Shown here: positions 3,290 through 38,892 of the stretch, piece after piece
Layout of the letters: each line of letters starts with the position of its first letter
Numbering within the stretch: position 1 is the stretch's first letter
Origin: Henckelia pumila
Taxonomy: Eukaryota > Streptophyta > Magnoliopsida > Lamiales > Gesneriaceae
Length of the DNA stretch: 64,000 nucleotides
Reading direction: 5' to 3'
NCBI RefSeq assembly: GCF_033568475.1
Contig: NC_133123.1
Span: 6,448,001 to 6,512,000, forward strand
Program-made: the position numbers and the translations under genes
Notes under the pieces: model-generated
The model's database searches: none
What the model was told of the DNA's origin: nothing
The model's input: the letters and a program-made list of their open reading frames with translations, nothing else

Positions 3290-6097
3290 TGAAACGACCC
3301 TAACTCTATAATAAATAAATATGCGGAATTTTTTTTTTTTTTATTTACTTACTAAATAAAATATGTACATATATGCCCATACATATATGCACAGAATAAA
3401 AATATTTAAAATGAATAAACAATTAAATACTTAAATAAAAATGCATTCTTAAAAATATAATAAATATCTGAGTCAAACATTAATTAAAAATATACTGCAT
3501 AAGTAAATAAAAGTTTGCATGCACTGAAAAAATTAAATAAATATTCTAGACCCTCAATCACTGAAAATAATAAAAATGTATCATGCTGACAAGAACAATC
3601 ACATGCATAGCGACTCAGAATATTTCACGGTCACGGGGCCACTGCATGCATGCTCATACGTCCTCGCCTCCGGTGGGTACAATGTCATCCTCAACGTACT
3701 CACCTGCACCATACCAGTGTAGTGAGCCTAGAGGCCCAACATGCTAACATAACAAGGGTTTAAAATAATTTAAACCAATTTAATACTAATACATACATAT
3801 ACATGAATGAGCATGCTTAAAAATTACATAACATAACTTAATTAAATAAACATAATACATAACATAATACATAACATTATTGAGCAATTTATTTTCTAAC
3901 ATAGCATGGTTGTATCCGTAGTGTAACCTTAAATCATACATTAAATACTGATCAGCGTGGAAACCTACGTACGTGGCCGGTGACGAATCACCTCTTAAAT
4001 TGGCAGTAAACTGCCCTTCAATCATATGGGGACGAATCCCCCTTAAATTGTCACACTACTTCAACTTTCAACATAAAATATTTTTATTGCTCAACTTAAA
4101 CATTAAATCATGTATAAAATATTATTTCATGAATGCATGTACTTGAATAAAATGTGTGTCCATCATATATTTAATTTAATTTCTTACTAACATATAAATA
4201 TTAAAATAACTTAAATGCATATAAATAATTAAATATATATTCAGGACACATGCAAATTTTCTCATGGATGGTCCTGGACTGCTGGCCCTAACACTCAAGC
4301 CCATTAACTTAAAACTGGCCCAATAACATACTTAAGCCCATTATTTCAAACTTTAAGCCCAAATAATTATTCTAAGCCCAATTAAATTAAGAAAGCCCAT
4401 TAAAATTACACTAAGCCCAATAACACTTAAACTGGCCCATTGGGCCCAAAAACCCAAAGACTGGCCCATTAAATTTTATGGGCCCAAAAGTCCATAAAAT
4501 AAATGGACTAACTTAATTAAAATTTTAAAAGTCCAAATAAAATTATTTGGGAGTCCAAATAATTTTATTTCAATTTATTTGACCCAAAAACACATAAATT
4601 CGTAAAATACTTTAAAAATAAAAAAACTCGAGCCCGGCCCACCAAACTCGGACCCGAACTCACTAACCCGACCCACTACCTAACCGCCCCGACCCGGACC
4701 CAAGACCCGACCCGGAACCACTCCCAAAGCCCCAACTCAATCACCCTCTTCCCTGCACTGCTGCGGCCACGAGCAGTTGCAAAGAACGCCGGCTGCCGCC
4801 ATGCTCCGGCCACCCACCGGCCGGAGCACCACCCCTAGGACTTAGCTCACATCCAGACCTTTCCAACAAGCCAAGAACCAGCCCAAACCGTCGACTATGG
4901 AGTGAGAACGAAGCCCTGCAACCCGGCCCTTCTGCACTGTCGCGCAGACCCGAGCAGCTGCGGGAAAACCCTTCGTCCTCGAAGCTCCGACCACGAAAGC
5001 CCATGCAACCTTCTGCAAAAACTTAGAAAACTCAAATGGGGTTCTAACCCAACCGGCCTTACCCTAAACCGTGGTCTGAGGAAGGAGAACGAAGCTCCCT
5101 TCCTTGAAACCCTGTTCTGCGCACTTGGAGAGGCAGAAACGAACCAGCTCAATTTCTGGGCTCTTTTGGCTCGAACCGTCCGAGCCAATCGAGCCTAGAC
5201 TCTCCCTAGACATCCTAGGGACCCTGTCCAGCAGCCTAGACACACCCATGGCTAAGAAACATGAGCATGACAATCAAACTCACACTACAAGCCATAAATT
5301 TCATGATGGCCGAAACTTTTCTGAAAATTTTTGAAAGTTTTTTGATGCATACACAATACCCACATATTATACTGATATGGCACGAAATTAAGAGAAGGAA
5401 TCATGCCTTTCACCGAAGATGACGAGAAAACACGAGCGTGGGGCGGTTCCGGGACGACGGGACGATGACTCGGCTTGAAAACCACACGAATTGAGGCTAT
5501 GGAGTCCTTGGAGAATGCTATCTGATGAAGAATATGGAGAATGGAGGGGAGGTAGGCGGCTGATGCTAGGAGAATGGCGTAGGGTTTGGGGATTATTTTA
5601 GGTAGATAATGGTTTAATAATTAAAATAGGAAGATAATAACATAATTAAAATAATCCCAACTTTAAAAATAATAATACTAACATAAATATTATAAAATCT
5701 CGAAATAATAATTTTAGGGAATTTTAAAGATAATAAAAAGTCAATATTTTGGCTTAATTTGAATAAAAATGGACTCCTAAAATTAAATAAAATTAAATAC
5801 TTAAAATTTTGAGATAATAAAACTCAAAATAATATTTTAAGGCTCTAAAAAGGCTCATAAAATAATTTGGGTGGAAAGTTGTCATCTCGTCCGTCCACGG
5901 TCCCGTCTACGCGATCAAATAATTAAAATACTAAAAATCATAAAAATTACTAATTATGGGTTAAATGCTTAAAAAAATAAATTAAATCATGCACAAATAA
6001 TTCACATAATTATTTAACCCATAAATCATAAATTTAAATAATTAAATATCTTAATTATGCAGGCGGATTTATGTAATTAAAAATACCGGGTGTTACA
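3290..6097 (-). repeat. Solo LTR, inverted, nested in the 5' LTR
   Basis: It begins TGAAACGACCC and ends GGGTGTTACA, the reverse complement of the family's LTR ends. It is flanked by a perfect 5-bp duplication GGCAG (3285-3289 and 6098-6102). It is 2808 bp with no internal region, so it is a solo LTR left by LTR-LTR recombination. Its outer thirds align well with the host LTR, but the GC-rich middle (about 4730-5340) is clearly different, so it comes from a related but distinct subfamily. Because it sits inside the young 5' LTR, its insertion is younger still. Confidence 0.9.
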
Positions 6098-6102
6098 GGC
6101 AG

Positions 6103-6861
6103 TTTCTGCCATTTATGTATGGGTGGTTCGCCACCAGCCTCGTACGATGGTTTCTTAGACTGATCAGTCGCACTATAAGTATGGGTCACACTTACGGATA
6201 GAACCATTCGATGTTAAGAAAATAAGTGCTCAACAACTCAAGTATGTATGATATTATGTATGTTATGTATAATTCAGTGATTTCTCTAAGTAACATTTAT
6301 GTTATTATTTTTAAGGCATGCTCATGCATTTATAGTATAAGTATTATGTATGAAAGTGTATTAAATTATTTTAAACCCTTGTTAGTATGCATGTTGGGCC
6401 TCTAGGCTCACTACACTGATATGGTGCAGGTGAGTATATAGAGGAGCAGGTTACCCCTACCGGTGGTGAGGACGTATGAGCAGTGCTGCAGTAGCCCCGT
6501 GACCGTGATAGATTCTGAGTCTCTCTGCATGGTGTTATTTTTGTCAGCATGATACAGTTTATATTATTTTACAGCAGTTGGGAGTTTCGAATATTTTACT
6601 AAATATTTTCAGTGCATGCACACTTTTTTTTATTTATTTTATTTATGCAATATCTTTTTAATTATAGGGTTGACTCAGATATTTATTTAATTTAAAGAAT
6701 GCAATTTTCTTAAGTATTTAATTATTGATTTATTTAGTCATGTATTTACTTTAAATATTTTATTCTGTGCATATATGTATGGGCATATATGTACACATTT
6801 TATTTAGTAGTATAAAAAAAAAAAAATTCCGCATATTTATTATAGAGTTAGGGTCGTTTCA
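6103..6861 (+). repeat. 5' LTR, second part
   Basis: This is the remaining ~760 bp of the 5' LTR, matching 20499-21257. It ends GGGTCGTTTCA next to the primer-binding site. With 1369-3289 it makes an LTR of 2680 bp, the same length as the other copies (2679 bp). Confidence 0.92.
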
Positions 6862-6863
6862 GT

Positions 6864-6875
6864 TGGTATCAGAGC
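6864..6875 (+). other. Primer-binding site (initiator tRNA-Met)
   Basis: TGGTATCAGAGC lies two bases after the 5' LTR end. It is the usual plant primer-binding site complementary to the 3' end of initiator tRNA-Met. Confidence 0.9.
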
Positions 6876-7046
6876 ACGGTCCTTGGAGGGGTCACTACTG
6901 CTATGCTAGCTCAGAAATCCACGCTACCGGTCTGTAAGTTTTAATGTTTATAGTATGATTTAATTTCTAGAATTTAAAGTTAGCCTTAATTTTAAACACT
7001 TAGTTATGCATGGCGATTTACGTAAATAAATATGTGGTGGTGCAGA

Positions 7047-8111
7047 ATGCCTCCCAGACAAGTGAACCGACGTGGGAGGCCTCCACATCCACCTCCACCT
7101 CCACCGCCACCTCAGCAGCACCCCATGACAGCACTGGAGCAGGCCAGTGCCACGATGATGGCGGGTATTACTGCTCTGTTGGAGCAGCAGGCTGCCCGTC
7201 CCAGACTGTCCCATGAGGAGGACGTCGCAGAGAGGTTCCAGAAGAAGGGGCCTAAGGAGTTTTTGGGGACCACCGATCCTTTGGTGGCTGAGGGATGGAT
7301 TCGCTCTCTTGAGTCCATCTTCGACTATATGGGGATCACAGACATCGACAGGGTGAGCTGTGCGACGTACATGATGCGAGGCGATGCAGCCCTTTGGTGG
7401 GAGGGTGCAGTTAGAGGGGTCCATTTACCTACACTGACGTGGGCCGAGTTCAGGCGTATCTTCTACGCCAAGTACTTCACTGAGGATGTGCGCAGTCGCA
7501 TGATCCGGGAGTTCATGAGTCTCCGTCAGGGGGACAGGTCTGTTGTGGAGTACGTGAGCCAGTTTGAGAGGGGCTGTCACTTTGTGCCCATGATTGCTGA
7601 TAGTCCGCAGGAGAAGCTGCGGCAGTTTGTGGAGGGCCTGAAGGCTGAGATCAGGCATGACGTGCGTATGGCAGACGTCTTTACATATGAGGCTGCATTC
7701 AGCAGGGCCTTGCGTTCCGAGGAGGGACGGAGAGAGATACAGAGAGAGCAGCAGGGTAAGAGGCAGTTTCTGCAGACAGGGTATCAGCGACCATCTTCGC
7801 AGCCACCTGCAAAGAAGCAGTCTACAGGGCCATCTAAGGGCCCGAATCAGCAGAGGCCTCAGGGGAAGCCACAACAGCAGACTAGGGGCGGGGCCCCTAC
7901 TCCAGGGAGATATCCAGTATGTCCGAAGTGTCAGAAGATGCATTCCGGGAAGTGTCTTATGGGAGCAGGAGTCTGCTATCGTTGCAAAGAGCCGGGGCAT
8001 CAGATTGCCAACTGCCCGCAGAGACAGAACGTCAGTGGGCGAGTATATGTGATGCAGGCAGAGGAGGCTGACCCAGATACCTCCTTGATCACCGGTATAC
8101 CTAACCCCTAG
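7047..8111 (+). CDS. gag: Retrotransposon gag (capsid/nucleocapsid)
   Basis: An open frame whose likely start is MPPRQVNRRGRP; an earlier in-frame ATG lies at 7032. It has a proline-rich N-terminus, a retrotransposon gag core (residues with WWEGAVRG and EFMSLRQGD) and a basic Q/P-rich linker. A CCHC zinc knuckle near the C-terminus (CYRCKEPGHQIANC) would bind RNA. It is followed by a ~200-bp noncoding spacer (about 8095-8291) with GT and AG edges before the protease region. There is only one gag in the block: neither hairpin arm carries it. It looks whole as a reading frame. Confidence 0.88.
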   Translation: MPPRQVNRRGRPPHPPPPPPPPQQHPMTALEQASATMMAGITALLEQQAARPRLSHEEDVAERFQKKGPKEFLGTTDPLVAEGWIRSLESIFDYMGITDIDRVSCATYMMRGDAALWWEGAVRGVHLPTLTWAEFRRIFYAKYFTEDVRSRMIREFMSLRQGDRSVVEYVSQFERGCHFVPMIADSPQEKLRQFVEGLKAEIRHDVRMADVFTYEAAFSRALRSEEGRREIQREQQGKRQFLQTGYQRPSSQPPAKKQSTGPSKGPNQQRPQGKPQQQTRGGAPTPGRYPVCPKCQKMHSGKCLMGAGVCYRCKEPGHQIANCPQRQNVSGRVYVMQAEEADPDTSLITGIPNP

Positions 8112-8291
8112 ACCTTTTTCAATTCTTTGCTTTTGTTTAATTGCGATTATATCATAATGCCTGTTACATGAGTTTAACTATCAGCATGCTAGAATAAGAA
8201 TATTGTTTCTTTGTGATTAGAATTAAGGATTTGTAGTGTTTTAACCTTGGGAGCATAGTGGTATGAATTGTTGGGAATCTTCTGCGTGCAG

Positions 8292-9386
8292 GGAGAATTC
8301 TAGTTGGAGGCAACTCTACGTTTGCGTTGCTAGATTCAGGAGCCACGCATTCGTTTATCTCCCGAGATTTTATCAGACGGATAGGCATTTCACCGGAGGT
8401 TGTAGACAGTGGTTACGATGTTACCATGCCATCCGGACAGATTATCACTACCACTAGTGTCATCAGGGATCTGGAATTGGAGCTGCAGGGGCACTCCATT
8501 CGAGCAGATCTAGTGGTTCTTCCATTGACTGGGTTTGACTTGATTTTGGGTATGGACTGGCTATCAGTTAATGGAGCTTCGATTGATTTCCGACGTAGGA
8601 CAGTGTCAGTGAAGCCAGCAGGAGGTGAGATGTTTACTTTCTTTGCATCTAAGTCTAGCAGTATTCCTCAGATGATATCACTTGTTCGTGCGAGGAAACT
8701 GTTGCGCCATGGATGTCAGGGTTTTCTTGCTAGTGTGGTCACTACCTCAGATGTTTCTAGCAGATCTTTATCAGACATAGAGGTGGTACGTGACTATCCA
8801 GATGTTTTTCCTGACGATGTTGCAGGAGTTCCACCAGTGAGAGAGGTGGAGTTCAGTATTGAGTTGTTGCCGGATACTGTGCCTATCTCTAAGGCACCAT
8901 ATCGACTTGCTCCTACAGAGATGAGAGAGTTGAAGGAGCAGATTCAGGAGCTGTTGGAGAAGGGCTTTGTTCGTCCTAGCTTTTCTCCATGGGGAGCTCC
9001 AGTGTTGTTTGTGAAGAAGAAGGACGGCAGCATGAGATTGTGCATTGACTACCGAGAGCTCAACAGAGTCACAGTGAAGAATAAGTATCCACTACCGAGG
9101 ATAGGGGATTTATTCGATCAGTTGCAGGGAGCTTCGGTATTCTCCAAGATCGATTTGCGATCTGGTTACCATCAGCTGAGAGTCAGAGATTCAGACGTGT
9201 CTAAGACTGCCTTTAGGACACGATATGGGCACTATGAGTTCTTGGTGATGCCCTTTGGGTTGACCAATGCTCCAGCAGTTTTTATGGATCTCATGCATCG
9301 TGTCTTCCAGCCGTATCTAGATCAGTTTGTCATTGTATTCATTGATGACATATTGATCTACTCGAGGAGCATTGAGGAGCATATAC
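8292..9386 (+). mobile_element. pol: pol fragment: protease and part of reverse transcriptase
   Basis: It contains the aspartic protease motif DSGATHSF and RT blocks up to the FIDDILIY catalytic motif, then stops where the inverted LTR begins at 9387. The same stretch occurs again, nearly identical and in the same orientation, at 15161-16255, so the two form ~1.1 kb direct repeats around the inverted arm. No target-site duplication accompanies the inverted segment. As a fossil it is an incomplete pol. Confidence 0.9.
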
Positions 9387-12065
9387 TGAAACGACCCTAA
9401 CTCTATAATGAATATGCGGAATTTTTTTTTTTTATACTACTAAATAAAATGTGTACATATATGCCCATACATATATGCACAGAATAAAATATTTAAAATA
9501 AATACATGACTAAATAAATCAATAATTAAATACTTAAGAAAATTGCATTCTTTAAATTAAATAAATATCTGAGTCAACCCTATAATTAAAAAGATATTGC
9601 ATAAATAAAATAAATAAAAAAAAGTGTGCATGCACTGAAAATATTTAGTAAAATATTCGAAACTCCCAACTGCTGTAAAATAATATAAACTGTATCATGC
9701 TGACAAAAATAACACCATGCAGAGAGACTCAGAATCTATCACGGTCACGGGGCTACTGCAGCACTGCTCATACGTCTTCACCACCGGTAGGGGTAACCTG
9801 CTCCTCTATATACTCACCTGCACCATATCAGTGTAGTGAGCCTAGAGGCCCAACATGCATACTAACAAGGGTTTAAAATAATTTAATACACTTTCATACA
9901 TAATACTTATACTATAAATGCATGAGCATGCCTTAAAAATAATAACATAAATGTTACTTAGAGAAATCACTGAATTATACATAACATACATAATATCATA
10001 CATACTTGAGTTGTTGAGCACTTATTTTCTTAACATCGAATGGTTCTATCCGTAAGTGTGACCCATACTTATAGTGCGACTGATCAGTCTAAGAAACCAT
10101 CGTACGAGGCTGGTGGCGAACCACCCATACATAAATGGCAGAAACTGCCCATACATAAATGGCCACACTACTTCAATTTCCACCTAAAATATTTTATTTG
10201 CTCAACCATAGAACTTCAATCATAGCATAAAAATTGATTTCATGAATGCATGTACTTAAATAAATTGTGTGTCCTTCATATATATTTAATTTAATTTTCT
10301 TACTAACATATAAATATTAAAATAACTTAAATGCATAAAAATAATTGAATATATAATCAGGACACATGCAATTTTTCTCATGGATGGTCCTGGACTGCTG
10401 GCCTTACAGTCAAGCCCATTAACTTAAATCTGGCCCATTAACATACTTAAGCCCAATATCTTAAACTTTAAGCCCAATTAATTAATCTAAGCCCAATTAA
10501 ATTAATTAAGCCCATTAAAATTACACTAAGCCCAATAACACTTAAACTGGCCCATTGGGCCCAAAAACCCAAAGACTGGCCCATTAACTTTTATGGGCCC
10601 AAAAGCCCATAAAATTAATGGACTAACTTAATTAAAATTTTAAAAGTCCAAATAAAATTATTTGGGAGTCCAAATAATTTTATTTCAATTAAATTGACTC
10701 AAAAACCCATTATTTCATAAAATATTTTAAAAATAAAAAGACTCGAGCCCGGCCCACCTAACCCGAACCCGGACTCACTTAACCCGACCCACTAACTTAC
10801 TGACCCGACCCGGACCCCTGACCCGACCCGGACCATGCCTCAAACCCTAGAACCCGAACCCTTACCTATTCTTACCCTCTCGGCCGCCGAGGGCTCGGGC
10901 AGCAGGCCTTCATCGCCTGCTGCCGCCCTGCTCCGACCACGACCGGCCGGAGCGCCGCCGGCAGGACCTCCCCAGGGTCCTGCCGGTTCGAACCATGCCA
11001 TTGTTCGAGCCCCATGCATTCCCATAACCGATCCCGAAGCCTCCAATTCCCAAACCCTAAACTGCTTCGGCCAAGCACTCGGCTGAACATGGTGACAACC
11101 TGGGCTCGTTTGGCTCGAACCACTCGAGCCACCCGAACCCAGACCACGTACACACACCCCTGGAACCCTAGCCATCAGCCGAACCAAGCATGGAGAGGAA
11201 AAAACGTGAGCATGCTTATGAAATACATGAACGATGCGCAAACCATGAACAACCGAATGGATTTTCTGAAAAATTACTAAAGGAATTTCGATGCCTACAT
11301 TAACCTACATAATACATACTGATATGATGTTAAAAACAAGAAGAAAATCATGCCTTTCACCGAAGTAGTAGAGAAAACGAGAAGGCGACGAGTCCGGGAC
11401 GACGGGGCGATGACAACCGACTTGAACCTTCAAAAACCAAGGCTATGGTGTTCTTGGAGCTTGCTCGGTGGAGAAGATGAAGATTTATGAGGGTGGCGGC
11501 TGATGGAGGGGTTGAGGGATCGGCTAAAGGGGTTTGGGGTAGATTAGGTTTAGGTTTTGATTTAAAATAGGTTTTAAGATAATTAAAAAGGTTTAAATAT
11601 AAAATATAAAATTTAAAAACTCTAATTAAAAGTTGAAATCTGAAATATTAAGTTAAACATATGAAAATCCCGAAATATTGAATTAAAGGAATTTTAAAAA
11701 TACTAAAAAGTCAATATTTTGGCTAATTTTGAATAAAAATGGACTCCTAAAATTATATAAAATTAAATACTTAAAATTTTGAGATAATAAAACTCAAAAT
11801 AATATTTTAAGGCTCTAAAAAGGCTCATAAAATAATTTGGGTGGAAAGTCGTCATCTCGTCCGTCCATGGTCCCGTCTACGCGATCAAATAATTAAAATA
11901 CTAAAAATCATACAAATCACTAATTATGGGTTAAATGCTTAAAAATAAATTAAATCATGCACAAATAGTTCACATAATTATTTAACCCATAAATCATAAA
12001 TTTAAATAATTAAATATCCTAATTATGCATGCGGATTTACGTATTTAAAAATACCGGGTGTTACA
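9387..12065 (-). repeat. Inverted internal LTR
   Basis: A 2679-bp LTR in minus orientation, beginning TGAAACGACCC and ending GGGTGTTACA. It is nearly identical to 18579-21257 read in reverse. A reverse-complement polypurine tract (CCCCCCCTTAAATTG, from about 12070) follows, showing that this is the 3' LTR of the inverted copy. It abuts the RT coding sequence of the outer element directly. Confidence 0.93.
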
Positions 12066-12110
12066 ATTCTCCCCCCCTTAAATTGAATTTCGTCCTCGAA
12101 ATTAAAGTAC

Positions 12111-15100
12111 TTACCCGAACAACTCCGGGTAGCGAGTCCTCATATCCTCCTCGGTCTCCCAAGTAGCTTCCTCCTCCGAGTGATTCAGCCATTGGACTCT
12201 GACCATCGGTATGACCCGCGTCCTAAGCCTCCGCTCCTCTCTAGCCAAGATCCGCACTGGTCTCTCCTCGTACACAAGATCTGGTGGCAACTGTAAGGGC
12301 TCGAAATCCAACACATGCGACGGGTTGGAGACATATCTCCGAAGCATGGATACATGGAAAACGTTGTGCACTGCCGCTAGCCCTGGAGGTAGAGCTAAAC
12401 GATAGGCCAACGTGCCAACTCGCTCCAAGATCTCGAATGGCCCTATATATCTCGGATTAAGCTTGCCTCTCCGTCCAAAACGCGCTACTCCCTTCATAGG
12501 TGACACCTTCAAGAATACGTGATCACCTACTGCGAACTCCAAATCGCGTCGTCTGGCATCTGCATAACTCTTCTGCCGACTCTGCGCAGTCCTCATCCTA
12601 TCTCGAATCTGCGTCACAATGTCAGCTGTCTGCTGCACAATCTCCGGACCCAACAAAATCCGCTCACCAACCTCATCCCAATGCACTGGAGATCTGCATC
12701 TCCTCCCATAAAGTGCTGCATATGGAGCCATACCTATAGACGACTGAAAGCTGTTGTTATAGGTAAACTCCACTAATGACAGTCTAGTCTCCCAAGATCC
12801 TCGAAAATCGATGACACAAGCTCTCAGAAGATCCTCGAGAATCTGGATCACTCTCTCGGACTGACCATCTGTCTGGGGATGAAATGTTGTACTAAACAAA
12901 AGCCTCGTCCCCAAAGCTGTGTGCAGACTCTTTCAAAACGCAGATGTGAATCTCGGATCTCTGTCTGACACAATAGACACTGGTATGCCATGCAGTCTAA
13001 CAATCTCTCTGATGTAAAGCTCTGCATACTGTGTCAAAGTATAAGTAGTCTTCACCGGCAAGAAATGAGCTGACTTGGTGAGTCTATCTACAATCACCCA
13101 AATCGCTGTGCAACCTCTGGCACTCCTCGGTAAGCCAACCACAAAGTCCATCGTAATATTCTCCCATTTCCATTCCAGAATAGGAAGAGGTCTAAGAAGT
13201 CCTGCTGGACGCTGATGCTCTGCTTTGACTTGCTGACAAGTCAAGCACTCTGACACCACTCTCCCGATGTCACTCTTCATCCCAGGCCACCAATACAATA
13301 ACTGCAAGTCTCGGTACATCTTCGTACTTCCGGGGTGAATGGAGTACGGAGATGCATGAGCCTCTGCTAGAATCTCGGCTCTCAACTGATCAACGTTCGG
13401 TACCCACATCCTCCCACGGTACTGAACGATGCCATCCTCCACTGTATACAAGAGATTACCTCTAGCCTCATCTCTCTGTCTCCATCGTTGTAACTCCTCA
13501 TCAGTAGACTGTCCCTCTCTAATCCGATCTCGCAGAACTGGCTGCACCGTCAACACTGACAAGCTCGGTGCATGGCCACACGGATAACACTCCAAGCCAA
13601 ATCTCTGAATCTCGCCCTGTAGTGGTAACTGTAAGGTCAAACATGATACCACTGACGACTTCCGACTCAAAGCATCGGCCACTACATTAGCTTTACCCGG
13701 ATGGTAGCTAATGTCACAGTCATAGTCCTTCACCAACTCCAACCATCTGCGCTGTCTCATGTTCAACTCCTTCTGTGTGAAGAAGTACTTGAGACTCTTG
13801 TGGTCTGTGAAAATCTTGCACTTCTCGCCATACAGATAGTGCCTCCAGATTTTCAAAGCGAATACCACTGCTGCTAACTCCAAGTCATGCGTCGGATAAT
13901 TCTTCTCATGAATCTTCAGCTGTCTCGACGCATACGCAATAACCTTACCACACTGCATAAGCACTGCACCTAAACCTAGTTTAGACGCGTCGGTGTACAC
14001 CACTAACTCCTCGTGTGGTACTGTCATCGCTAACACTGGTGCTGAAGTAAGTGCATCCTTCAGTTGATCAAAACTCCTCTGACAATCTGGACTCCAAATA
14101 TACTTCGCGTTCTTCTTGGTTAAGGAAGTCAAGGGTACTGCAATAGAGGAAAAACCCTTGATGAACTTCCTATAGTATCCTGCTAAACCCAAGAAGCTGC
14201 GAATCTCCGAAGCATTCTTTGGAATCCCCCAATCCCTCACTGCCTGCACCTTGGACTGATCCACTGCAATCCCATCCCTAGAAATAATGTGGCCTAGAAA
14301 CGCCACCTGCTCCAACCAAAACTCACACTTACTGAACTTTGCAAACAGTCGATGCTCCCTCAAAGTCTGCAAGGCTGTATGCAAATGTTGTATATGCTCC
14401 TCAATGCTCCTCGAGTAGATCAATATGTCATCAATGAATACAATGACAAACTGATCTAGATACGGCTGGAAGACACGATGCATGAGATCCATAAAAACTG
14501 CTGGAGCATTGGTCAACCCAAAGGGCATCACCAAGAACTCATAGTGCCCATATCGTGTCCTAAAGGCAGTCTTAGACACGTCTGAATCTCTGACTCTCAG
14601 CTGATGGTAACCAGATCGCAAATCGATCTTGGAGAATACCGAAGCTCCCTGCAACTGATCGAATAAATCCTCTATCCTCGGTAGTGGATACTTATTCTTC
14701 ACTGTGACTCTGTTGAGCTCTCGGTAGTCAATGCACAATCTCATGCTGCCGTCCTTCTTCTTCACAAACAACACTGGAGCTCCCCATGGAGAAAAGCTAG
14801 GACGAACAAAGCCCTTCTCCAACAGCTCCTGAATCTGCTCCTTCAACTCTCTCATCTCTGTAGGAGCAAGTCGATATGGTGCCTTAGAGATAGGCACAGT
14901 ATCCGGCAACAACTCAATACTGAACTCCACCTCTCTCACTGGTGGAACTCCTGCAACATCGTCAGGAAAAACATCTGGATAGTCACGTACCACCTCTATG
15001 TCTGATAAAGATCTACTAGAAACATCTGAGGTAGTGACCACACTAGCAAGAAAACCCTGACATCCATGGCGCAACAGTTTCCTCGCACGAACAAGTGATA

Positions 15101-15161
15101 TAATCTGAGGAATACTGCTAGACTGAGATGCAAAGAAAGTAAACATCTCACCTCCTGCTGG
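12111..15161 (-). mobile_element. pol: Inverted pol arm (PR end, RT, RNase H, integrase, chromodomain)
   Basis: Read on the minus strand it carries the end of the protease region, RT with [16 protein letters not shown] and FIDDILIY, RNase H ([13 protein letters not shown]), the integrase core ([20 protein letters not shown]) and a C-terminal chromodomain-like region (VRVQWLNHSEEEATWE). The 5' end of the element (LTR, gag, start of protease) is missing. It has about one visible break, shared with the sense arm, so both arms descend from an already defective copy. It ends at 15161, where the sequence switches to the sense copy with a 2-bp GG overlap. Confidence 0.9.
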
Positions 15162-18100
15162 GAGAATTCTAGTTGGAGGCAACTCTACGTTTGCGTTGCT
15201 AGATTCAGGAGCCACGCATTCGTTTATCTCCCGAGATTTTATCAGACGGATAGGCATTTCACCGGAGGTTGTAGACAGTGGTTACGATGTTACCATGCCA
15301 TCCGGACAGATTATCACTACCACTAGTGTCATCAGGGATCTGGAATTGGAGCTGCAGGGGCACTCCATTCGAGCAGATCTAGTGGTTCTTCCATTGACTG
15401 GGTTTGACTTGATTTTGGGTATGGACTGGCTATCAGTTAATGGAGCTTCGATTGATTTCCGACGTAGGACAGTGTCAGTGAAGCCAGCAGGAGGTGAGAT
15501 GTTTACTTTCTTTGCATCTCAGTCTAGCAGTATTCCTCAGATGATATCACTTGTTCGTGCGAGGAAACTGTTGCGCCATGGATGTCAGGGTTTTCTTGCT
15601 AGTGTGGTCACTACCTCAGATGTTTCTAGCAGATCTTTATCAGACATAGAGGTGGTACGTGACTATCCAGATGTTTTTCCTGAAGATGTTGCAGGAGTTC
15701 CACCAGTGAGAGAGGTGGAGTTCAGTATTGAGTTGTTGCCGGATACTGTGCCTATCTCTAAGGCACCATATCGACTTGCTCCTACAGAGATGAGAGAGTT
15801 GAAGGAGCAGATTCAGGAGCTGTTGGAGAAGGGCTTTGTTCGTCCTAGCTTTTCTCCATGGGGAGCTCCAGTGTTGTTTGTGAAGAAGAAGGACGGCAGC
15901 ATGAGATTGTGCATTGACTACCGAGAGCTCAACAGAGTCACAGTGAAGAATAAGTATCCACTACCGAGGATAGAGGATTTATTCGATCAGTTGCAGGGAG
16001 CTTCGGTATTCTCCAAGATCGATTTGCGATCTGGTTACCATCAGCTGAGAGTCAGAGATTCAGCCGTGTCTAAGACTGCCTTTAGGACACGATATGGGCA
16101 CTATGAGTTCTTGGTGATGCCCTTTGGGTTGACCAATGCTCCAGCAGTTTTTATGGATCTCATGCATCGTGTCTTCCAGCCGTATCTAGATCAGTTTGTC
16201 ATTGTATTCATTGATGACATATTGATCTACTCGAGGAGCATTGAGGAGCATATACAACATTTGCATACAGCCTTGCAGACTTTGAGGGAGCATCGACTGT
16301 TTGCAAAGTTCAGTAAGTGTGAGTTTTGGTTGGAGCAGGTGGCGTTTCTAGGCCACATTATTTCTAGGGATGGGATTGCAGTGGATCAGTCCAAGGTGCA
16401 GGCAGTGAGGGATTGGGGGATTCCAAAGAATGCTTCGGAGATTCGCAGCTTCTTGGGTTTAGCAGGATACTATAGGAAGTTCATCAAGGGTTTTTCCTCT
16501 ATTGCAGTACCCTTGACTTCCTTAACCAAGAAGAACGCGAAGTATATTTGGAGTCCAGATTGTCAGAGGAGTTTTGATCAACTGAAGGATGCACTTACTT
16601 CAGCACCAGTGTTAGCGATGACAGTACCACACGAGGAGTTAGTGGTGTACACCGACGCGTCTAAACTAGGTTTAGGTGCAGTGCTTATGCAGTGTGGTAA
16701 GGTTATTGCGTATGCGTCGAGACAGCTGAAGATTCATGAGAAGAATTATCCGACGCATGACTTGGAGTTAGCAGCAGTGGTATTCGCTTTGAAAATCTGG
16801 AGGCACTATCTGTATGGCGAGAAGTGCAAGATTTTCACAGACCACAAGAGTCTCAAGTACTTCTTCACACAGAAGGAGTTGAACATGAGACAGCGCAGAT
16901 GGTTGGAGTTGGTGAAGGACTATGACTGTGACATTAGCTACCATCCGGGTAAAGCTAATGTAGTGGCCGATGCTTTGAGTCGGAAGTCGTCAGTGGTATC
17001 ATGTTTGACCTTACAGTTACCACTACAGGGCGAGATTCAGAGATTTGGCTTGGAGTGTTATCCGTGTGGCCATGCACCGAGCTTGTCAGTGTTGACGGTG
17101 CAGCCAGTTCTGCGAGATCGGATTAGAGAGGGACAGTCTACTGATGAGGAGTTACAACGATGGAGACAGAGAGATGAGGCTAGAGGTAATCTCTTGTATA
17201 CAGTGGAGGATGGCATCGTTCAGTACCGTGGGAGGATGTGGGTACCGAACGTTGATCAGTTGAGAGCCGAGATTCTAGCAGAGGCTCATGCATCTCCGTA
17301 CTCCATTCACCCCGGAAGTACGAAGATGTACCGAGACTTGCAGTTATTGTATTGGTGGCCTGGGATGAAGAGTGACATCGGGAGAGTGGTGTCAGAGTGC
17401 TTGACTTGTCAGCAAGTCAAAGCAGAGCATCAGCGTCCAGCAGGACTTCTTAGACCTCTTCCTATTCTGGAATGGAAATGGGAGAATATTACGATGGACT
17501 TTGTGGTTGGCTTACCGAGGAGTGCCAGAGGTTGCACAGCGATTTGGGTGATTGTAGATAGACTCACCAAGTCAGCTCATTTCTTGCCGGTGAAGACTAC
17601 TTATACTTTGACACAGTATGCAGAGCTTTACATCAGAGAGATTGTTAGACTGCATGGCATACCAGTGTCTATTGTGTCAGACAGAGATCCGAGATTCACA
17701 TCTGCGTTTTGAAAGAGTCTGCACACAGCTTTGGGGACGAGGCTTTTGTTTAGTACAACATTTCATCCCCAGACAGATGGTCAGTCCGAGAGAGTGATCC
17801 AGATTCTCGAGGATCTTCTGAGAGCTTGTGTCATCGATTTTCGAGGATCTTGGGAGACTAGACTGCCATTAGTGGAGTTTACCTATAACAACAGCTTTCA
17901 GTCGTCTATAGGTATGGCTCCATATGCAGCACTTTATGGGAGGAGATGCAGATCTCCAGTGCATTGGGATGAGGTTGGTGAGCGGATTTTGTTGGGTCCG
18001 GAGATTGTGCAGCAGACAGCTGACATTGTGACGCAGATTCGAGATAGGATGAGGACTGCGCAGAGTCGGCAGAAGAGTTATGCAGATGCCAGACGACGCG

Positions 18101-18534
18101 ATTTGGAGTTCGCAGTAGGTGATCACGTATTCTTGAAGGTGTCACCTATGAAGGGAGTAGCGCGTTTTGGACGGAGAGGCAAACTTAATCCGAGATATAT
18201 AGGGCCATTCGAGATCTTGGAGCGAGTTGGCACGTTGGCCTATCGTTTAGCTCTACCTCCAGGGCTAGCGGCAGTGCACAACGTTTTCCATGTATCCATG
18301 CTTCGGAGATATGTCTCCAACCCGTCGCATGTGTTGGATTTCGAGCCCTTACAGTTGCCACCAGATCTTGTGTACGAGGAGAGACCAGTGCGGATCTTGG
18401 CTAGAGAGGAGCGGAGGCTTAGGACGCGGGTCATACCGATGGTCAGAGTCCAATGGCTGAATCACTCGGAGGAGGAAGCTACTTGGGAGACCGAGGAGGA
18501 TATGAGGACTCGCTACCCGGAGTTGTTCGGGTAA
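15162..18534 (+). mobile_element. pol: Sense pol arm (PR, RT, RNase H, integrase, chromodomain)
   Basis: The most complete pol in the block. In order: protease (DSGATHSF), RT ([18 protein letters not shown]), RNase H ([10 protein letters not shown]), zinc-binding and core integrase ([24 protein letters not shown]) and a chromodomain-like C-terminus, which chromoviruses use to read histone marks at the target. From 15484 on it is the mirror partner of 9387-15161. Bases 15162-15483 form the loop of the hairpin. Broken by about one visible change. It starts at the downstream edge of the gag-pol spacer, with no gag ahead of it. Confidence 0.9.
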
Positions 18535-18560
18535 GTACTTTAATTTCGAGGACGAAATTC

Positions 18561-18578
18561 AATTTAAGGGGGGAGAAT
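18561..18578 (+). other. Polypurine tract
   Basis: The run AAGGGGGGAGAA lies immediately before the 3' LTR, the expected plus-strand primer site. Confidence 0.85.
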
Positions 18579-21257
18579 TGTAACACCCGGTATTTTTAAA
18601 TACGTAAATCCGCATGCATAATTAGGATATTTAATTATTTAAATTTATGATTTATGGGTTAAATAATTATGTGAACTATTTGTGCATGATTTAATTTATT
18701 TTTAAGCATTTAACCCATAATTAGTGATTTGTATGATTTTTAGTATTTTAATTATTTGATCGCGTAGACGGGACCATGGACGGACGAGATGACGACTTTC
18801 CACCCAAATTATTTTATGAGCCTTTTTAGAGCCTTAAAATATTATTTTGAGTTTTATTATCTCAAAATTTTAAGTATTTAATTTTATATAATTTTAGGAG
18901 TCCATTTTTATTCAAAATTAGCCAAAATATTGACTTTTTAGTATTTTTAAAATTCCTTTAATTCAATATTTCGGGATTTTCATATGTTTAACTTAATATT
19001 TCAGATTTCAACTTTTAATTAGAGTTTTTAAATTTTATATTTTATATTTAAACCTTTTTAATTATCTTAAAACCTATTTTAAATCAAAACCTAAACCTAA
19101 TCTACCCCAAACCCCTTTAGCCGATCCCTCAACCCCTCCATCAGCCGCCACCCTCATAAATCTTCATCTTCTCCACCGAGCAAGCTCCAAGAACACCATA
19201 GCCTCGGTTTTTGAAGGTTCAAGTCGGTTGTCATCGCCCCGTCGTCCCGGACTCGTCGCCTTCTCGTTTTCTCTACTACTTCGGTGAAAGGCATGATTTT
19301 CTTCTTGTTTTTAACATCATATCAGTATGTATTATGTAGGTTAATGTAGGCATCGAAATTCCTTTAGTAATTTTTCAGAAAATCCATTCGGTTGTTCATG
19401 GTTTGCGCATCGTTCATGTATTTCATAAGCATGCTCACGTTTTTTCCTCTCCATGCTTGGTTCGGCTGATGGCTAGGGTTCCAGGGGTGTGTGTACGTGG
19501 TCTGGGTTCGGGTGGCTCGAGTGGTTCGAGCCAAACGAGCCCAGGTTGTCACCATGTTCAGCCGAGTGCTTGGCCGAAGCAGTTTAGGGTTTGGGAATTG
19601 GAGGCTTCGGGCTCGGTTATGGGAATGCATGGGGCTCGAACCATGGCATGGTTCGAACCGGCAGGACCCTGGGGAGGTCCTGCCGGCGGCGCTCCGGCCG
19701 GTCGTGGCCGGAGCAGGGCGGCAGCAGGCGATGAAGGCCTGCTGCCCGAGCCCTCGGCGGCCGAGAGGGTAAGAATAGGTAAGGGTTCGGGTTCTAGGGT
19801 TTGAGGCATGGTCCGGGTCGGGTCAGGGGTCCGGGTCGGGTCAGTAAGTTAGTGGGTCGGGTTAAGTGAGTCCGGGTCCGGGTTAGGTGGGCCGGGCTCG
19901 AGTCTTTTTATTTTTAAAATATTTTATGAAATAATGGGTTTTTGAGTCAATTTATTTGAAATAAAATTATTTGGACTCCCAAATAATTTTATTTGGACTT
20001 TTAAAATTTTAATTAAGTTAGTCCATTAATTTTATGGGCTTTTGGGCCCATAAAATTTAATGGGCCAGTCTTTGGGTTTTTGGGCCCAATGGGCCAGTTT
20101 AAGTGTTATTGGGCTTAGTGTAATTTTAATGGGCTTAATTAATTTAATTGGGCTTAGATTAATTAATTGGGCTTAAAGTTTAAGATATTGGGCTTAAGTA
20201 TGTTAATGGGCCAGATTTAAGTTAATGGGCTTGAGTGTAAGGCCAGCAGTCCAGGACCATCCATGAGAAAAATTGCATGTGTCCTGATTATATATTCAAT
20301 TATTTTTATGCATTTAAGTTATTTTAATATTTATATGTTAGTAAGAAAATTAAATTAAATATATATGAAGGACACATAATTTATTTAAGTACATGCATTC
20401 ATGAAATCAATTTTTATGCTATGATTGAAGTTCTATGGTTGAGCAAATAAAATATTTTAGGTGGAAATTGAAGTAGTGTGGCCATTTATGTATGGGCAGT
20501 TTCTGCCATTTATGTATGGGTGGTTCGCCACCAGCCTCGTACGATGGTTTCTTAGACTGATCAGTCGCACTATAAGTATGGGTCACACTTACGGATAGAA
20601 CCATTCGATGTTAAGAAAATAAGTGCTCAACAACTCAAGTATGTATGATATTATGTATGTTATGTATAATTCAGTGATTTCTCTAAGTAACATTTATGTT
20701 ATTATTTTTAAGGCATGCTCATGCATTTATAGTATAAGTATTATGTATGAAAGTGTATTAAATTATTTTAAACCCTTGTTAGTATGCATGTTGGGCCTCT
20801 AGGCTCACTACACTGATATGGTGCAGGTGAGTATATAGAGGAGCAGGTTACCCCTACCGGTGGTGAGGACGTATGAGCAGTGCTGCAGTAGCCCCGTGAC
20901 CGTGATAGATTCTGAGTCTCTCTGCATGGTGTTATTTTTGTCAGCATGATACAGTTTATATTATTTTACAGCAGTTGGGAGTTTCGAATATTTTACTAAA
21001 TATTTTCAGTGCATGCACACTTTTTTTTATTTATTTTATTTATGCAATATCTTTTTAATTATAGGGTTGACTCAGATATTTATTTAATTTAAAGAATGCA
21101 ATTTTCTTAAGTATTTAATTATTGATTTATTTAGTCATGTATTTATTTTAAATATTTTATTCTGTGCATATATGTATGGGCATATATGTACACATTTTAT
21201 TTAGTAGTATAAAAAAAAAAATTTCCGCATATTTATTATAGAGTTAGGGTCGTTTCA
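18579..21257 (+). repeat. 3' LTR
   Basis: 2679 bp, TGTAACACCC to GGGTCGTTTCA, followed by the duplicated target GAATC (21258-21262). It is the cleanest copy in the window. It contains about twelve TGGGCC/TGGGCT motifs within some 200 bp (about 20034-20232) and a GC-rich stretch at about 19490-19905. Confidence 0.93.
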
Positions 21258-21539
21258 GAATCGGCGGACGATCGAGTTCAGAATTGTGTCTAATCGGCTT
21301 CTGGTTGAGATAACTAGGATCGCGTTCGGAGGGTACTGCTTTCAATAACTTAATTTTTTTACTTCATTCACATGTGAGATTGTTTTGACATTCGAGAAGT
21401 AAAATCGAAGTTTATGAAAAGGTTGTTGATTATCAACGAGTTCATTGTACAATAGGACATGAGATGACAAATTTATGGAAAGTGCGCAAAACAACATGAA
21501 GAACATTACAAACCCTTTGATTGTGGTCGAAGTAGCCAT
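21258..21539 (-). pseudogene. 5' part of disrupted CLE-like repeat gene (unit 1)
   Basis: It starts MATSTTIKGFVMFFMLFC, a hydrophobic secretion signal almost identical to those at 23438 and 27141. A variable pro-region follows (LLYNELVDNQQPFHKLRF, SNVKTISHVNEVKK). The box that follows reads KAVPSERDPSYLN in another frame, so relative to the unit 3 copy the frame shifts just before the box (near 21342-21350). The gene is then cut by the retrotransposon at 21258 and resumes at 1368. The frame change may predate the insertion. CLE membership is inferred from the shared signal and pro-region with the canonical paralogue. Confidence 0.75.
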
Positions 21540-22235: not shown

Positions 22236-22322
<87 letters not shown>

Positions 22323-23162: not shown

Positions 23163-23438
23163 TTACACTAGAAACGTGGCGGGGGTAGAGCCAACACCGA
23201 GTCGTGACTCGTGATGGTGAGGATCGGGTCCGGAGGGTACTTCTCTCAACAACCTTTCGACTCCATTTTTATGAGCCATTGTTTTAACATCTGAGAAATT
23301 GAACCCGAGTTTGCGAAGAAGTTGTTGGCTACTCATGGGTTCTTTGTGCAAGAGGACTCGAGAGGACAAATTCATGGGAAATGCGCAAAACAACATGAAG
23401 AATGTCACAAACACTTTGATTGTGGTCGAAGTAGCCAT
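23163..23438 (-). CDS. CLE: CLE signalling peptide precursor
   Basis: A 91-residue single-exon precursor. Residues 1-28 form a secretion signal (MATSTTIKVFVTFFMLFC start), followed by a variable pro-region. The CLE box REVPSGPDPHHH is at residues 65-76 (bases 23211-23246), with a 15-residue tail. The box keeps the family positions R1, V3, P4, G6, P7, D8, P9 and H11-12 and is closest to the CLV3-type pattern RxVPSGPDPLHH. Such precursors are secreted, trimmed to 12-13 residues, often hydroxylated and arabinosylated on prolines, and perceived by leucine-rich-repeat receptor kinases in meristem or root signalling. ATG 23438 is chosen over 23462 because both paralogues share it. The gene looks intact. 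The receptor and tissue cannot be told from the sequence. Confidence 0.88.
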   Translation of the reverse strand: MATSTTIKVFVTFFMLFCAFPMNLSSRVLLHKEPMSSQQLLRKLGFNFSDVKTMAHKNGVERLLREVPSGPDPHHHESRLGVGSTPATFLV

Positions 23439-25472: not shown

Positions 25473-26039
25473 TTGATATATTCTGAAAACACATTTTCAT
25501 AGATCTTTCAAAAGCATCCCAAATAAAAGCATATATTATCTGATTTTATTTTATTTTTTTATGGATTGTTCTACAGAGTTCATTCATATGTTTGATTTTG
25601 CCATCTTTATATTATTTTTTTTTCTTTTTTGATATGAATGTCAATATAAATCACTAGATTAATAAATTTTATTTAGAGTAAGATATTTGATTTATGGATT
25701 TGAAATGACGTTTATATTAGATGTATTCGTAATCTATTATAATGACTAGTTGAGAAATCCGAAATTAATAGATTTGAAAATCCCTCGTCTCAAATCCATC
25801 CATTCAAGTGAAAATAATTAGAAAATTATATATTAATTTATAATCAACAAGGTCAATTTACTTACAATCAACTCCAAGATTTCTTTAAATCAACTTTTAT
25901 GGAACAAATTGGGACATTGGAAAGAGAGGAGACACGGTACTATTTACGATGTACCACACATGCACCAATGACCATTACACTAGAAGCGGCTATCGAGGTG
26001 AATCGACAGATGATCGAGTTCAGAGTTAAGTTCAATCGG

Positions 26040-27141
26040 CTACGGGTTGAGATAACTAGGATCGCGATCGGGGTGAATCGACGGATGATCGTGTTCAAAG
26101 TTGAGTCCAATCGGCTTTGGATTGAGATATCTAATTGGCAGGTGATCGAGTTTAAAGTTGAGTCCAAACTGCTCCGGGTTGAGATAACTAGGATCGCGAT
26201 TGGGGTGAACCGGCGGACGATCGAGTTCAGAGTTGAGTCCAATCGGCTCCGGGTTTAGATAACTAGGATCGTGATTGGGGTTAATCGGCGGGCGATCGAG
26301 TTCAGAGTTGAGTCCAAACGGTTCCGGGTTGAGAAAACTAGGATCTTGATTGGGGTGAATCAGCGGACGATCGAGTTCAGAGTTGAGTCCAATTGGCACT
26401 GGGTTGAGATATATAATCGGCAGGCGATCGAGTTTAGAGTTGAGTCCAAACTGCTCTGGGTTGAGATAACTAGGATCGCGATTAGGTTGAATCGGCGGAC
26501 GATCGAGTTCAGAGTTGAGTCCAATCGGCTCCGGGTTGAGATAACTAGGATCGCGATTGGGGTGAATCGGCGGGCGATCGAGTTCAGAGTTGAGTCCAAA
26601 CGGTTCCGCGTTGAGATAACTAGGATCTTGATTGGGGTGAATCGGCGGACGATCGAGTTTAAAGTTCAGTCCAATCGGCTCCGGGTTAAGATAACTAGGA
26701 TCACGATTTGGGTGAATCGACGGGTGATCGAGTTCAAAGTTGAGTCCAAATGGCTCCGGGATGAGATAACTAGGATCGCGATTGGGGTGAATCGGCGGAC
26801 GATCGAGTTCATAGTTTAGTCCAATCGGCTCCGGATTGAGATAACGAGGATGGCGATCGGGGTGAATCGGCGGACGATCGAGTTCAGAGTTGAGTTCAAT
26901 CGGCTCCGGGTTGAGATAACTAGGATCGCCTCCGAAAGGTACTTCTTTCAATAACGTTTTAACTTCATTCACACGTGAGATTGTGTTTGACATTCGATGA
27001 ATCAAATCTAAGTTTATGAAAGGGTTGTTGATTATCCACGAGTTCCTTGTTCAATAGGACACGAGAAGACAAATTTATGGGAAGTGAGCAAAACAACATG
27101 AAGAACATTACAAACCCTTTGATTGTGGTCGAAGTAGCCAT
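26040..27141 (-). pseudogene. CLE-like precursor with 12 tandem C-terminal repeats (unit 3)
   Basis: From ATG 27141 it reads a secretion signal nearly identical to its paralogues, then a pro-region. One extra base near 26982-26990 moves the frame, after which a 289-codon repeat frame stays open to a TAG at 26040. The degenerate box KEVPFGGDPSYL (26913-26948) occupies the place of REVPSGPDPHHH in the 23163-23438 gene. Twelve in-frame units follow, ten of 25 and two of 19 residues, each with a DPSYLN-like core, GLN.ELD and PPIHPN. After the stop one more decayed unit leads to the same 3' flank as the intact gene. It may be a pseudogene, an assembly slip, or an expressed repeat protein starting at 27005, which would lack the signal. 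Kinship to CLE is well supported; function is unknown. Confidence 0.7.
26043..26909 (-). repeat. 75/57-bp coding tandem repeat, with a 4-unit higher order
   Basis: Twelve units on the minus strand, 75 bp (25 codons) or 57 bp (19 codons), all multiples of three. They alternate between I-type (PEPIGL) and F-type (PEPFGL or PEQFGL). The two short units are the 7th and 11th, so units 4-7 and 8-11 form a 4-unit, 94-codon higher-order repeat. This implies at least two rounds of duplication. One more partly decayed unit lies beyond the stop, toward 25980. Confidence 0.88.
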
Positions 27142-27858: not shown

Positions 27859-28173
27859 CTATCTAAAGTGGCATCTCAAGATCTTGGAGCCAGACTCGTA
27901 TACTTTACTCGGAGCAGCTAAATATTTCTTTCGATTATTCAGCAAAAACCCAGATATTAAAACGGAGGATTGTATTTGTAGGATGAAATCCCTTGTAAGG
28001 GGCGATGAATCCAAGTAAAAGTGAGTAATGTCCATCAAAGGAATCCTGCACTCACGGGTCTTTTCGATGCAAGATTGTATGTTTTGAGCATCTGGGATGC
28101 GTTTATTTGGAGGAAATGGAGGGGTATTCTCTTTGTCGTCGGATTCCAAGATTGAAACTTTCACCTCTTTCAT
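27859..28173 (-). CDS. Small KEN-box protein of unknown function
   Basis: A 104-residue frame starting MKEVKVSILESDDKENTPP. An upstream in-frame ATG at 28296 would add 41 residues that look like leader sequence. Visible motifs: DKEN at residues 13-16, which fits a KEN box, and RIPL followed by MDIT near the middle, which fits a destruction-box-like RxxL. Both are degrons read by the anaphase-promoting complex in cell-cycle regulators. I do not recognise the family. The C-terminal part (GFLLNNRKKYL to the end) could instead be intron or 3' sequence. No close neighbour gives context. The frame and degron-like motifs are seen; a cell-cycle role is inference only. Confidence 0.42.
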   Translation of the reverse strand: MKEVKVSILESDDKENTPPFPPNKRIPDAQNIQSCIEKTRECRIPLMDITHFYLDSSPLTRDFILQIQSSVLISGFLLNNRKKYLAAPSKVYESGSKILRCHFR

Positions 28174-28299
28174 CACTTTCGGCAAACGAAATAGATCGGT
28201 GGCAAAAGAAAATGGTGTAATTGGGAGGTATTTGTAGCAAGGGTGAAAACATATTTTGGAGGGAGGGATATGATTTGGGTTTTTGAAGTTGGCCATTTT

Positions 28300-38001: not shown

Positions 38002-38892
38002 ATGAAAGGGAGCGAGATAGTTCAAGTTGAAGGTGGGCATATCATCCGAGCTACCGGCCGGAAAGATCGACACAGCAAGGTTTTCACGGCGAAAGGGCCC
38101 AGGGATCGAAGGGTGAGGCTTTCGGCCCACACCGCCATACAATTTTACGACGTTCAAGACAGGCTGGGCTACGACCGGCCCAGCAAAGCCTTGGATTGGC
38201 TGATCCAGAAGGCGAAAAACGCCATCAATCAGCTGAATCATGAGCTGCCTCCTTGGAACCCCGGCACGGATAATAATGCAGTACTACTCGCTCCAAGCTC
38301 AGATTCAAATCCCAGCTCCGGCGAGCAAGCAAATGACCAGCTTCCTGAAAATACAAGTAATAGTACAAATCCAAGCTCATTTATTATGCAGGCTGCAGAT
38401 GTGAACTCGATGAAATCTTTGTTCCCCACGAATTCTGTCAACTTTCCAGCTGATAATTTTTCCAACCAAGGGATTAATATTCTTCCTAGAGCTAATTCGA
38501 TGTTCCAGGCGGGAGATCTGGGCCTCTCTCTTCAATCTCTACAGGCTGCTGATCATGAAAACAGTACTGAGAATCATCATCCTGCTGGTTCGAATTTAAT
38601 GGGATTTCATGATCAAAGCAGCAGCTGGAATATGGAGCAGCAGGGATATTTTCCTCAGGGATTTGCATTTTCTCAAAGGGATCTCCTTCAGTCCAACTTA
38701 TTTGCTCACTCTTGGATTCATAATAATGAGAGGCCATTTACCGTCGCCGCCGAACACAATTATCAACAGCCGGCACGCTCGGCGGCGGCGGCGGCCCGCC
38801 AATCTTCGGATTCCGGTAACCATTTCGACTTGGGTTTCCATGTACTTCCAGCTCAATTTTACCCCGAAGATGGTGAAGGAATCAATCGGTGA
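38002..38892 (+). CDS. TCP4-like: Class II CIN-type TCP transcription factor (TCP4-like, miR319 target)
   Basis: A single-exon, 296-residue protein. The basic-helix-loop-helix TCP domain spans about residues 18-76 ([20 protein letters not shown], then [17 protein letters not shown] and [11 protein letters not shown]), with class II spacing and the ELPPWNP motif just after. CIN-type TCPs bind GGNCCC-like DNA in the nucleus, restrain cell division in leaf margins, promote maturation and affect petal growth and jasmonate synthesis. The C-terminus is low-complexity (Q/N/S) with an alanine run. RDLLQSN (226-232) overlaps a miR319 site, which places it with the TCP2/3/4/10/24 group. The N-terminus before the domain is shorter than in Arabidopsis TCP4. 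The ATG at 38002 is the first in frame, with a long leader ahead. Confidence 0.93.
38676..38696 (+). promoter_or_regulatory. miR319 target site
   Basis: The 3' twelve bases (CCTTCAGTCCAA) are perfectly complementary to the 5' end of miR319. The 5' part has several mismatches, as is usual in TCP targets. It lies in frame over codons for RDLLQSN. Cleavage here is established in the CIN TCP group; its use in this gene is inferred. Confidence 0.88.

Follow-up and report, generated by a model that had tools for sequence, protein, structure and literature searches.

CLE-derived genes with C-terminal repeat arrays in Henckelia pumila

Three CLE paralogues in tandem

The DNA analyzed here (the window; 64,000 nucleotides, C4:6448001-6512000 of an 885 Mb assembly in 133 contigs) carries three CLE paralogues, termed A, B, and C, in tandem on its minus strand (Table 1). 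All three share a homologous N-terminal signal peptide and a variable pro-region, which are among the features by which members of the CLE family are recognized.

Table 1. Positions of the CLE paralogues and the inserted retrotransposons in the window
Feature	Position	Strand	Remarks
Copy B, intact canonical CLE gene	23163-23438	minus	91 codons; no array
Copy B, CLE box REVPSGPDPHHH	23246-23211	minus	10/10 consensus positions
Copy A, signal and pro-region ORF	21342-21539	minus	insertion before box breaks frame
Copy A, remains of the box (AVPSERDPSYLN) plus first array unit	21258-21339	minus	ends at transposon
Copy A, remaining two array units	1198-1368	minus	far side of transposon
Nested LTR retrotransposons; gag-pol ORFs assigned to the Ty3 type by eye	1369-21257		inside copy A array
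Copy C, signal peptide and pro-region ORF	27141-26965	minus	58 codons; stop after frame break
Copy C, degenerate CLE-like box KEVPFGGDPSYL	26913-26948	minus	6/10 consensus positions
Copy C, 75-bp (25-codon) repeat array	25980-26927	minus	13 YLN-headed segments, two of 57 bp

An earlier note on this DNA had described copy C as a CLE-type precursor that shares its signal peptide and pro-region with the canonical gene B and whose C-terminus has turned into a repeat array, and both observations hold. The three paralogues can be aligned over the signal peptide, over the pro-region, and into the box, alignment resumes at a common 3' end (CTTCTAGT/TTTCTAGT), and the ATG of B lies 2.54 kb from the array end of C. 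The whole of copy C runs from 27141 to 25980 as signal peptide, pro-region, KEVPFGGDPSYL, and array, and its repeat DNA extends about 60 bp beyond the end given earlier. The 12 spacings between the 13 YLN-headed segments comprise ten of 25 codons and two of 19. Tandem Repeats Finder (TRF) scores for the array reach 1329, which excludes a chance origin of the repetition. A 282-bp block of four units recurs within the array, and identity among units is 88.7% at lag 4, versus 85.0-87.3% at all remaining lags between 1 and 8.

In copy C, the signal peptide and the array lie in different frames through one extra base, which the earlier note had also pointed out and which is present relative to both A and B. 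This frame break sits outside any long homopolymer. The repeat frame stays open as far as a TAG at 26040-26042, a nonsense codon in the last unit. Because the extra base breaks the frame and the last unit holds a nonsense codon, copy C is most likely a pseudogene or relic. Two arguments for coding drawn earlier from this array are accurate as descriptions but carry little weight. The repeat frame is indeed open up to the TAG, but another minus-strand frame over the array holds ORFs of 100 and 79 codons and a plus-strand frame holds ORFs of 119 and 182 codons. Similarly, all unit lengths are multiples of three, but this amounts to a single 75-bp unit plus, probably, one deletion of 18 bp that was later copied with the 282-bp block.

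Copy A, which the earlier note did not include, has the same design as C with three units, but it is split across 21539-21258 and 1368-1198 by a block of about 19.9 kb of retrotransposon DNA, flanked by a target duplication of 5 bp, GAATC (1364-1368 and 21258-21262). Several segments of this block are 99.3%-99.7% alike, some in inverted orientation, and this similarity points to a recent insertion. A short deletion in the array beside the insertion site was recognized by eye. The frame-breaking lesions of A and C arose independently.

Comparison of the three copies places the array precisely. It starts within the box, at D-P codons that are common to A, B, and C (GATCCT in each), and its end in C falls at sequence alignable with the 3' end of B. 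In both A and C, it occupies exactly the position of the C-terminal extension of copy B. Because the array runs from the D-P codons of the box to a B-like 3' end, the unit takes the place of the CLE C-terminal extension.

For copy B itself, a Pfam-A scan gave three matches, each under its cut-off, and a PDB search gave no credible match. A protein search returned three relatives, of which the single named one is from Dorcoceras hygrometricum (Gesneriaceae, Lamiales). Elsewhere in the window, roughly 28 TTA units form a perfect (TTA)n microsatellite between copies A and B (22240-22322), a TCP transcription factor ORF (PF03634) lies at 38002-38892, and a probable two-exon gene for a papain-family cysteine protease lies at 48054-49502 (PF00112 on 48948-49502; 48054-48518 assigned by eye).

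Array genes on a second contig

A search of the same genome at the DNA level with three units returned at least 37 matches. Besides A and C, these fall into nine loci on another contig (C2), at 187.49 Mb and 188.13-188.42 Mb, none of which was part of the earlier note. All nine loci (L031-L039) were examined over 5 kb each. This one DNA query thus brings the known array loci to at least 11, of which seven are intact and four (A, C, L031, and L032) are frame-broken. In L033-L039, a single ORF spans the signal peptide, the box, and the entire array without the need for an intron, and it encodes 267 residues, or 271 in L035. L032 carries a one-base insertion in its array, and L031 carries several lesions. 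The earlier note had named an array that is untranscribed, absent, or frame-broken in all close relatives, together with unit changes that lack a bias toward synonymous sites, as reasons to give up its reading; the seven loci with a single frame and the synonymous bias described below are at odds with that outcome on these two points.

The intact C2 proteins consist of a signal peptide, a pro-region, a degenerate box, seven full units that are mostly of the GLNSEYHPPIYPNRDPNYLNPEPI type, and a last partial unit that ends in PPIHPDRLF or PPIHPDWLF. The N-terminus of the array proteins is hydrophobic as judged by hydropathy. Over residues 1-75 or 1-80, eight of the nine C2 loci are 53%-59% identical to copy B, and L031 is 36% identical. 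The number of units in family copies ranges from three (A) to 13 (C). A TATA-like site lies 81-88 bp upstream of the ATG in every copy checked, namely A, B, C, and three C2 copies. DNA common to the neighborhood of copy C and to L034 and L039 runs up to 27906, just inside a 145-codon minus-strand ORF (27859-28296) that adjoins copy C and has no Pfam match.

Over the longest alignable stretch, L034 is 93%-98% identical to seven of the other eight C2 loci and 87% identical to L031. The seven intact genes are young, and their intactness therefore partly reflects age. In a midpoint-rooted tree of 256 columns, in which none of the nine inner branches reaches the mark for strong support, the array copies stand apart from B, with C branching first, then A, and then the C2 branch.

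No Pfam-A family was assigned at the gathering score to the two ORFs of copy C or to an intact C2 protein. The earlier note had suggested a protein search across related plants; searches of 5.8 billion proteins with the array ORF of the window and with a mixed profile found no homologous array. The array genes apparently constitute a lineage-specific family.

Unit sequence and coding-frame bias

The CLE box consensus, which we take to be R-x-V-P-[ST]-G-P-[DN]-P-x-H-[HN] with ten scored positions, is matched at all ten positions by the box of B, at six by those of A and C, and at seven by the C2 consensus. The boxes of A, C, and the C2 genes all lack P7, H11, and H12, and they thus fall outside the definition of a CLE box. 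Three representative unit types match one to three of the ten positions. The proposal in the earlier note that the units are amplified CLE boxes separated by spacers is not borne out by these scores, nor by the location of most invariant positions in the supposed spacer.

Among 30 distinct C2 units of the EYH type (numbered with a gap at position 6), L2, N3, S4, Y7, H8, I11, Y12, P13, N14, and Y19 are invariant, and P9 and P10 are each altered in two of 30. The invariant L, N, S, Y, H, I, Y, P, and N positions fall within LNSEYHPPIYPN, and the core tyrosine of DPNYLN (Y19) is invariant too. The most variable positions are E5, R15, P17, and P22-I25, and in the D-P core the proline position is occupied by P in 19 units and by H in 11. 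Because the best-kept stretch, LNS[EK]YHPPIYPN, lies outside and after the box-derived D-P-x-Y-L-N, the amplified part is mainly the C-terminal extension. Window units typically read LNSELDRPPIHPN at this stretch, and the single 25-codon units and last units of the C2 genes are roughly alike to these. The unit sequence is thus judged to have diverged between the window and C2 branches.

Candidate sources and relatives of the unit were also considered. Derivation from the tail of copy B found no support: the unit core has no similarity to it (P = 0.63-0.72), and inclusion of the common 3' flank gave P = 0.18-0.25. Kinship with RGF, PSY, or CIF peptides, as hinted by RPPIHPN in comparison with RKPPIHN and RPPF..IPN, was rejected, since three unit types scored no better than shuffled units (P = 0.54-0.78) against the 25 Arabidopsis RGF/CLEL-PSY-CIF-type motifs printed in PMC11534595.

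A bias toward synonymous change between units, the decisive statistic proposed in the earlier note, was assessed by placing distinct variants at random on columns of the same base and, for the alignment of whole genes, of the same CpG state; the P values that follow are uncorrected for phylogeny and for the number of tests. Units of A and C, set out in 16 rows of which five had unalignable ends trimmed, show 18 synonymous variants where 12.8 are expected, along with 31 replacements and one stop (P = 0.022), and the other two frames give P = 0.86 and 0.30. Units of copy C alone show 15 synonymous variants versus 10.2 expected (P = 0.025). Variation in window units is nearly even across the codon positions (15/16/19). 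The seven intact C2 genes contain 56 units, and the 30 EYH-type units were drawn from these by leaving out identical repeats, seven 25-codon units, and seven last partial units, and trimming the single 28-codon unit of L035 to 24. They show 20 synonymous variants (13.9 expected) and 27 replacements (30.8 expected), with P = 0.006; the two remaining frames give P = 0.999 and 0.13 and contain stops, and variation is skewed by codon position (8/16/23). The bias is present in both unit sets and only in the coding frame, and its strength is modest.

The seven aligned C2 genes had been picked for their intactness before variants (those of the 30 units included), Ka/Ks, and pN/pS were counted. Their arrays show 23 synonymous and 35 replacement variants versus 17.6 and 39.8 expected (P = 0.054), and their pro-regions show four and 16 versus 4.8 and 14.0 (P = 0.76). 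Over the whole gene, the synonymous excess is not significant (P = 0.13), and no stops occur where 2.2 are expected (P = 0.086). Pooled over the seven genes, pN/pS comes to 0.50 for the whole gene, with 0.40 for the array and 1.16 for the pro-region. Among eight copies including L032, the coding sequence has two indel events in 804 bp, one of them frame-breaking, whereas the two 600-bp flanks have nine events, some overlapping, of which seven are not multiples of three. As a sign of constraint, this difference would be only suggestive.

Copies A and C can be compared in the same manner. Across 52 common pro-region codons, their Ka/Ks is 0.34, from the few changes available (5.5 synonymous and 7.5 replacement), and they are 92% identical in coding sequence versus 86%-87% in the flanks. 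Relative to the C2 consensus, pro-region Ka/Ks is 0.30 for C and 0.78 for A. Because the lesions are independent and because of these Ka/Ks values and the higher identity of coding sequence than of flanks, the array-bearing gene probably was still constrained after the A/C split, with each copy breaking later, although the numbers are small.

Origin and possible products of the array genes

The observations on copy C recorded in the earlier note are confirmed, and its interpretation is supported in part. The account that we favor, with somewhat better than even confidence, is that A and C are decayed members of a CLE-derived family in which the extension was amplified, and that the intact C2 members would be secreted and may serve as peptide precursors. 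The ancestor would have been a CLE gene of the B type, the box of which lost its conserved C-terminal residues and the C-terminal extension of which was amplified in frame after the box. Intact C2 members would encode a secreted protein of 267-271 residues, and in the likeliest mode, secreted proteases would cut this precursor into several Tyr/Pro-rich peptides around LNSEYHPPIYPN. The E-Y and P-P pairs of the unit would suit sulfation and hydroxylation. The anatomy of these genes, their common origin, their open frames, and the synonymous bias are demonstrated, and the expression, secretion, and cleavage of the products and their perception as signals are putative.

Some of the same data could reflect a neutral 75-bp minisatellite in dying or very young duplicate genes, one that came to lie in frame after a CLE box by accident and that grew by slippage and unequal exchange without yielding a useful product. 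The breakage of four of 11 array loci, the nearly even distribution of window variants over codon positions, the growth by a four-unit block with the highest identity at lag 4, and the ease with which the array holds ORFs of 79-182 codons in its other frames all agree with such an origin, to which we assign an appreciable but minority chance. Against it stand the single frame kept by seven of nine C2 copies, the synonymous excess seen only in the coding frame of two unit sets, and the codon-position skew of the C2 units. A serious rival, which we rate as slightly less probable again, is that the array serves as a structural product, a secreted wall-type repeat protein rich in proline and tyrosine that took over its signal peptide and promoter from a CLE gene. 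The C2 consensus array is 20.9% Pro, 10.2% Tyr, and 13.8% Asn and contains no Cys or Trp, three tyrosine positions are invariant in 30 units, and the P-P pair is nearly so. Against this, the intact C2 protein has no Pfam match, and the array is rich in Asn and Asp, a composition from which extensins and PRPs differ. Ordinary CLE C-terminal extensions are already proline-rich (19.5%; PMC4526924), which also accords with a structural role.

Two further alternatives concern copy C and the nature of the units. It is improbable that copy C is functional and that its frame break is an assembly error or is spliced around, even though a single extra base is involved, the array is otherwise open to the last unit, and the TATA-like site is retained. 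The break is not in a long homopolymer, the nonsense codon constitutes a second lesion, the assembly is contiguous, and all seven intact C2 genes read through without an intron. Even less credence can be given to a strict multi-CLE precursor that yields a dozen CLE peptides, as in rice, wheat, and soybean. The array does start inside the box, and a D-P core is present in window units and in most C2 units, but a strict precursor of this type is contradicted by the one to three consensus positions matched in the three representative unit types, and the proline of the D-P core varies in C2 units while the unit tail is mostly invariant.

If the favored account of a decayed and amplified CLE-derived family is followed one step further, a CLE gene would have lost its CLE signal, its extension would have become an array, and selection would now keep a different repeated peptide (around LNSEYHPPIYPN) in a gene cluster amplified locally within one plant lineage. 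Such a nascent peptide-hormone family is a tentative suggestion that we regard as possible rather than probable. The origins of plant peptide signals are mostly deduced from finished families. Here, one genome holds an ordinary CLE gene and two broken array copies in a cluster, together with seven intact, recently amplified genes elsewhere, and this co-occurrence allows the steps of box decay, tail amplification, gene multiplication, and decay to be ordered. Should the units give rise to free peptides, the family would represent a CLE-derived precursor with a non-CLE product. If they do not, it would be a clear example of a peptide-hormone gene that became a secreted repeat protein.

Known systems offer partial parallels. 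Multi-CLE precursors include CLE75 and CLE76 of rice, CLE30/31 of wheat, and CLE68 of Medicago (PMC2254619), and soybean GmCLE37a/b carry six CLE domains (PMC4526924). Like the array genes, these precursors place similar units at regular intervals (mostly 25-37 residues) behind a signal peptide and pro-region of CLE type, all within one ORF; signal and repeats share an open frame at seven of the nine C2 loci but not in A and C. Each unit in the known precursors is a recognizable CLE box, whereas in the array genes the box decayed once and mainly post-box sequence repeats. CLE pre-propeptides measure up to 127 residues, and their C-terminal extension is proline-rich and varies by gene (PMC4526924). 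The array resembles this extension in directly following the CLE domain, in its proline content, and in its gene-to-gene variability, but it differs in its length of about 200 residues and in its makeup of tandem units that keep a constant core. The C-terminus of AtCLE18 contains a second peptide, of the CLEL/RGF family (PMC11534595, PMC4016512), and the array genes similarly have a further peptide-like motif past the box in the same precursor; the AtCLE18 motif is single and belongs to a known family, whereas the array unit resembles the RGF/PSY/CIF-type motifs no better than shuffled units do. CEP precursors, some of which are plant-family-specific, likewise are secreted and hold a short peptide domain once or several times (PMC4197245). 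The CEP domain is not known to be related in sequence to the array unit.

Text searches of the literature found DPSYLN in no paper, and of YPNRDP, PPIYPN, EPIPPR, and REVPSGPDPHHH, only EPIPPR occurs, in three papers with titles unrelated to plants. Titles and opening lines of abstracts on CLE genes in Gesneriaceae and on CLE extension repeats in Lamiales mention no similar array. A plant CLE relative (P0003) with a related signal peptide and a CLE-type box also has a tandem repeat in this position, where RETPSGSDPHYH is followed by six units of the SGEPIPPR type, but its eight-residue unit has another sequence, and it probably represents an independent, parallel expansion of the C-terminal extension. 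The presence of a different repeat at the same point suggests that in-frame growth of the extension may be a tendency of this CLE clade. A Dorcoceras protein of 102 residues named "TMV resistance protein N" (P0002; box 5/10) is 66% identical to copy B over 77%, and because of this match to a CLE gene it is probably misnamed.
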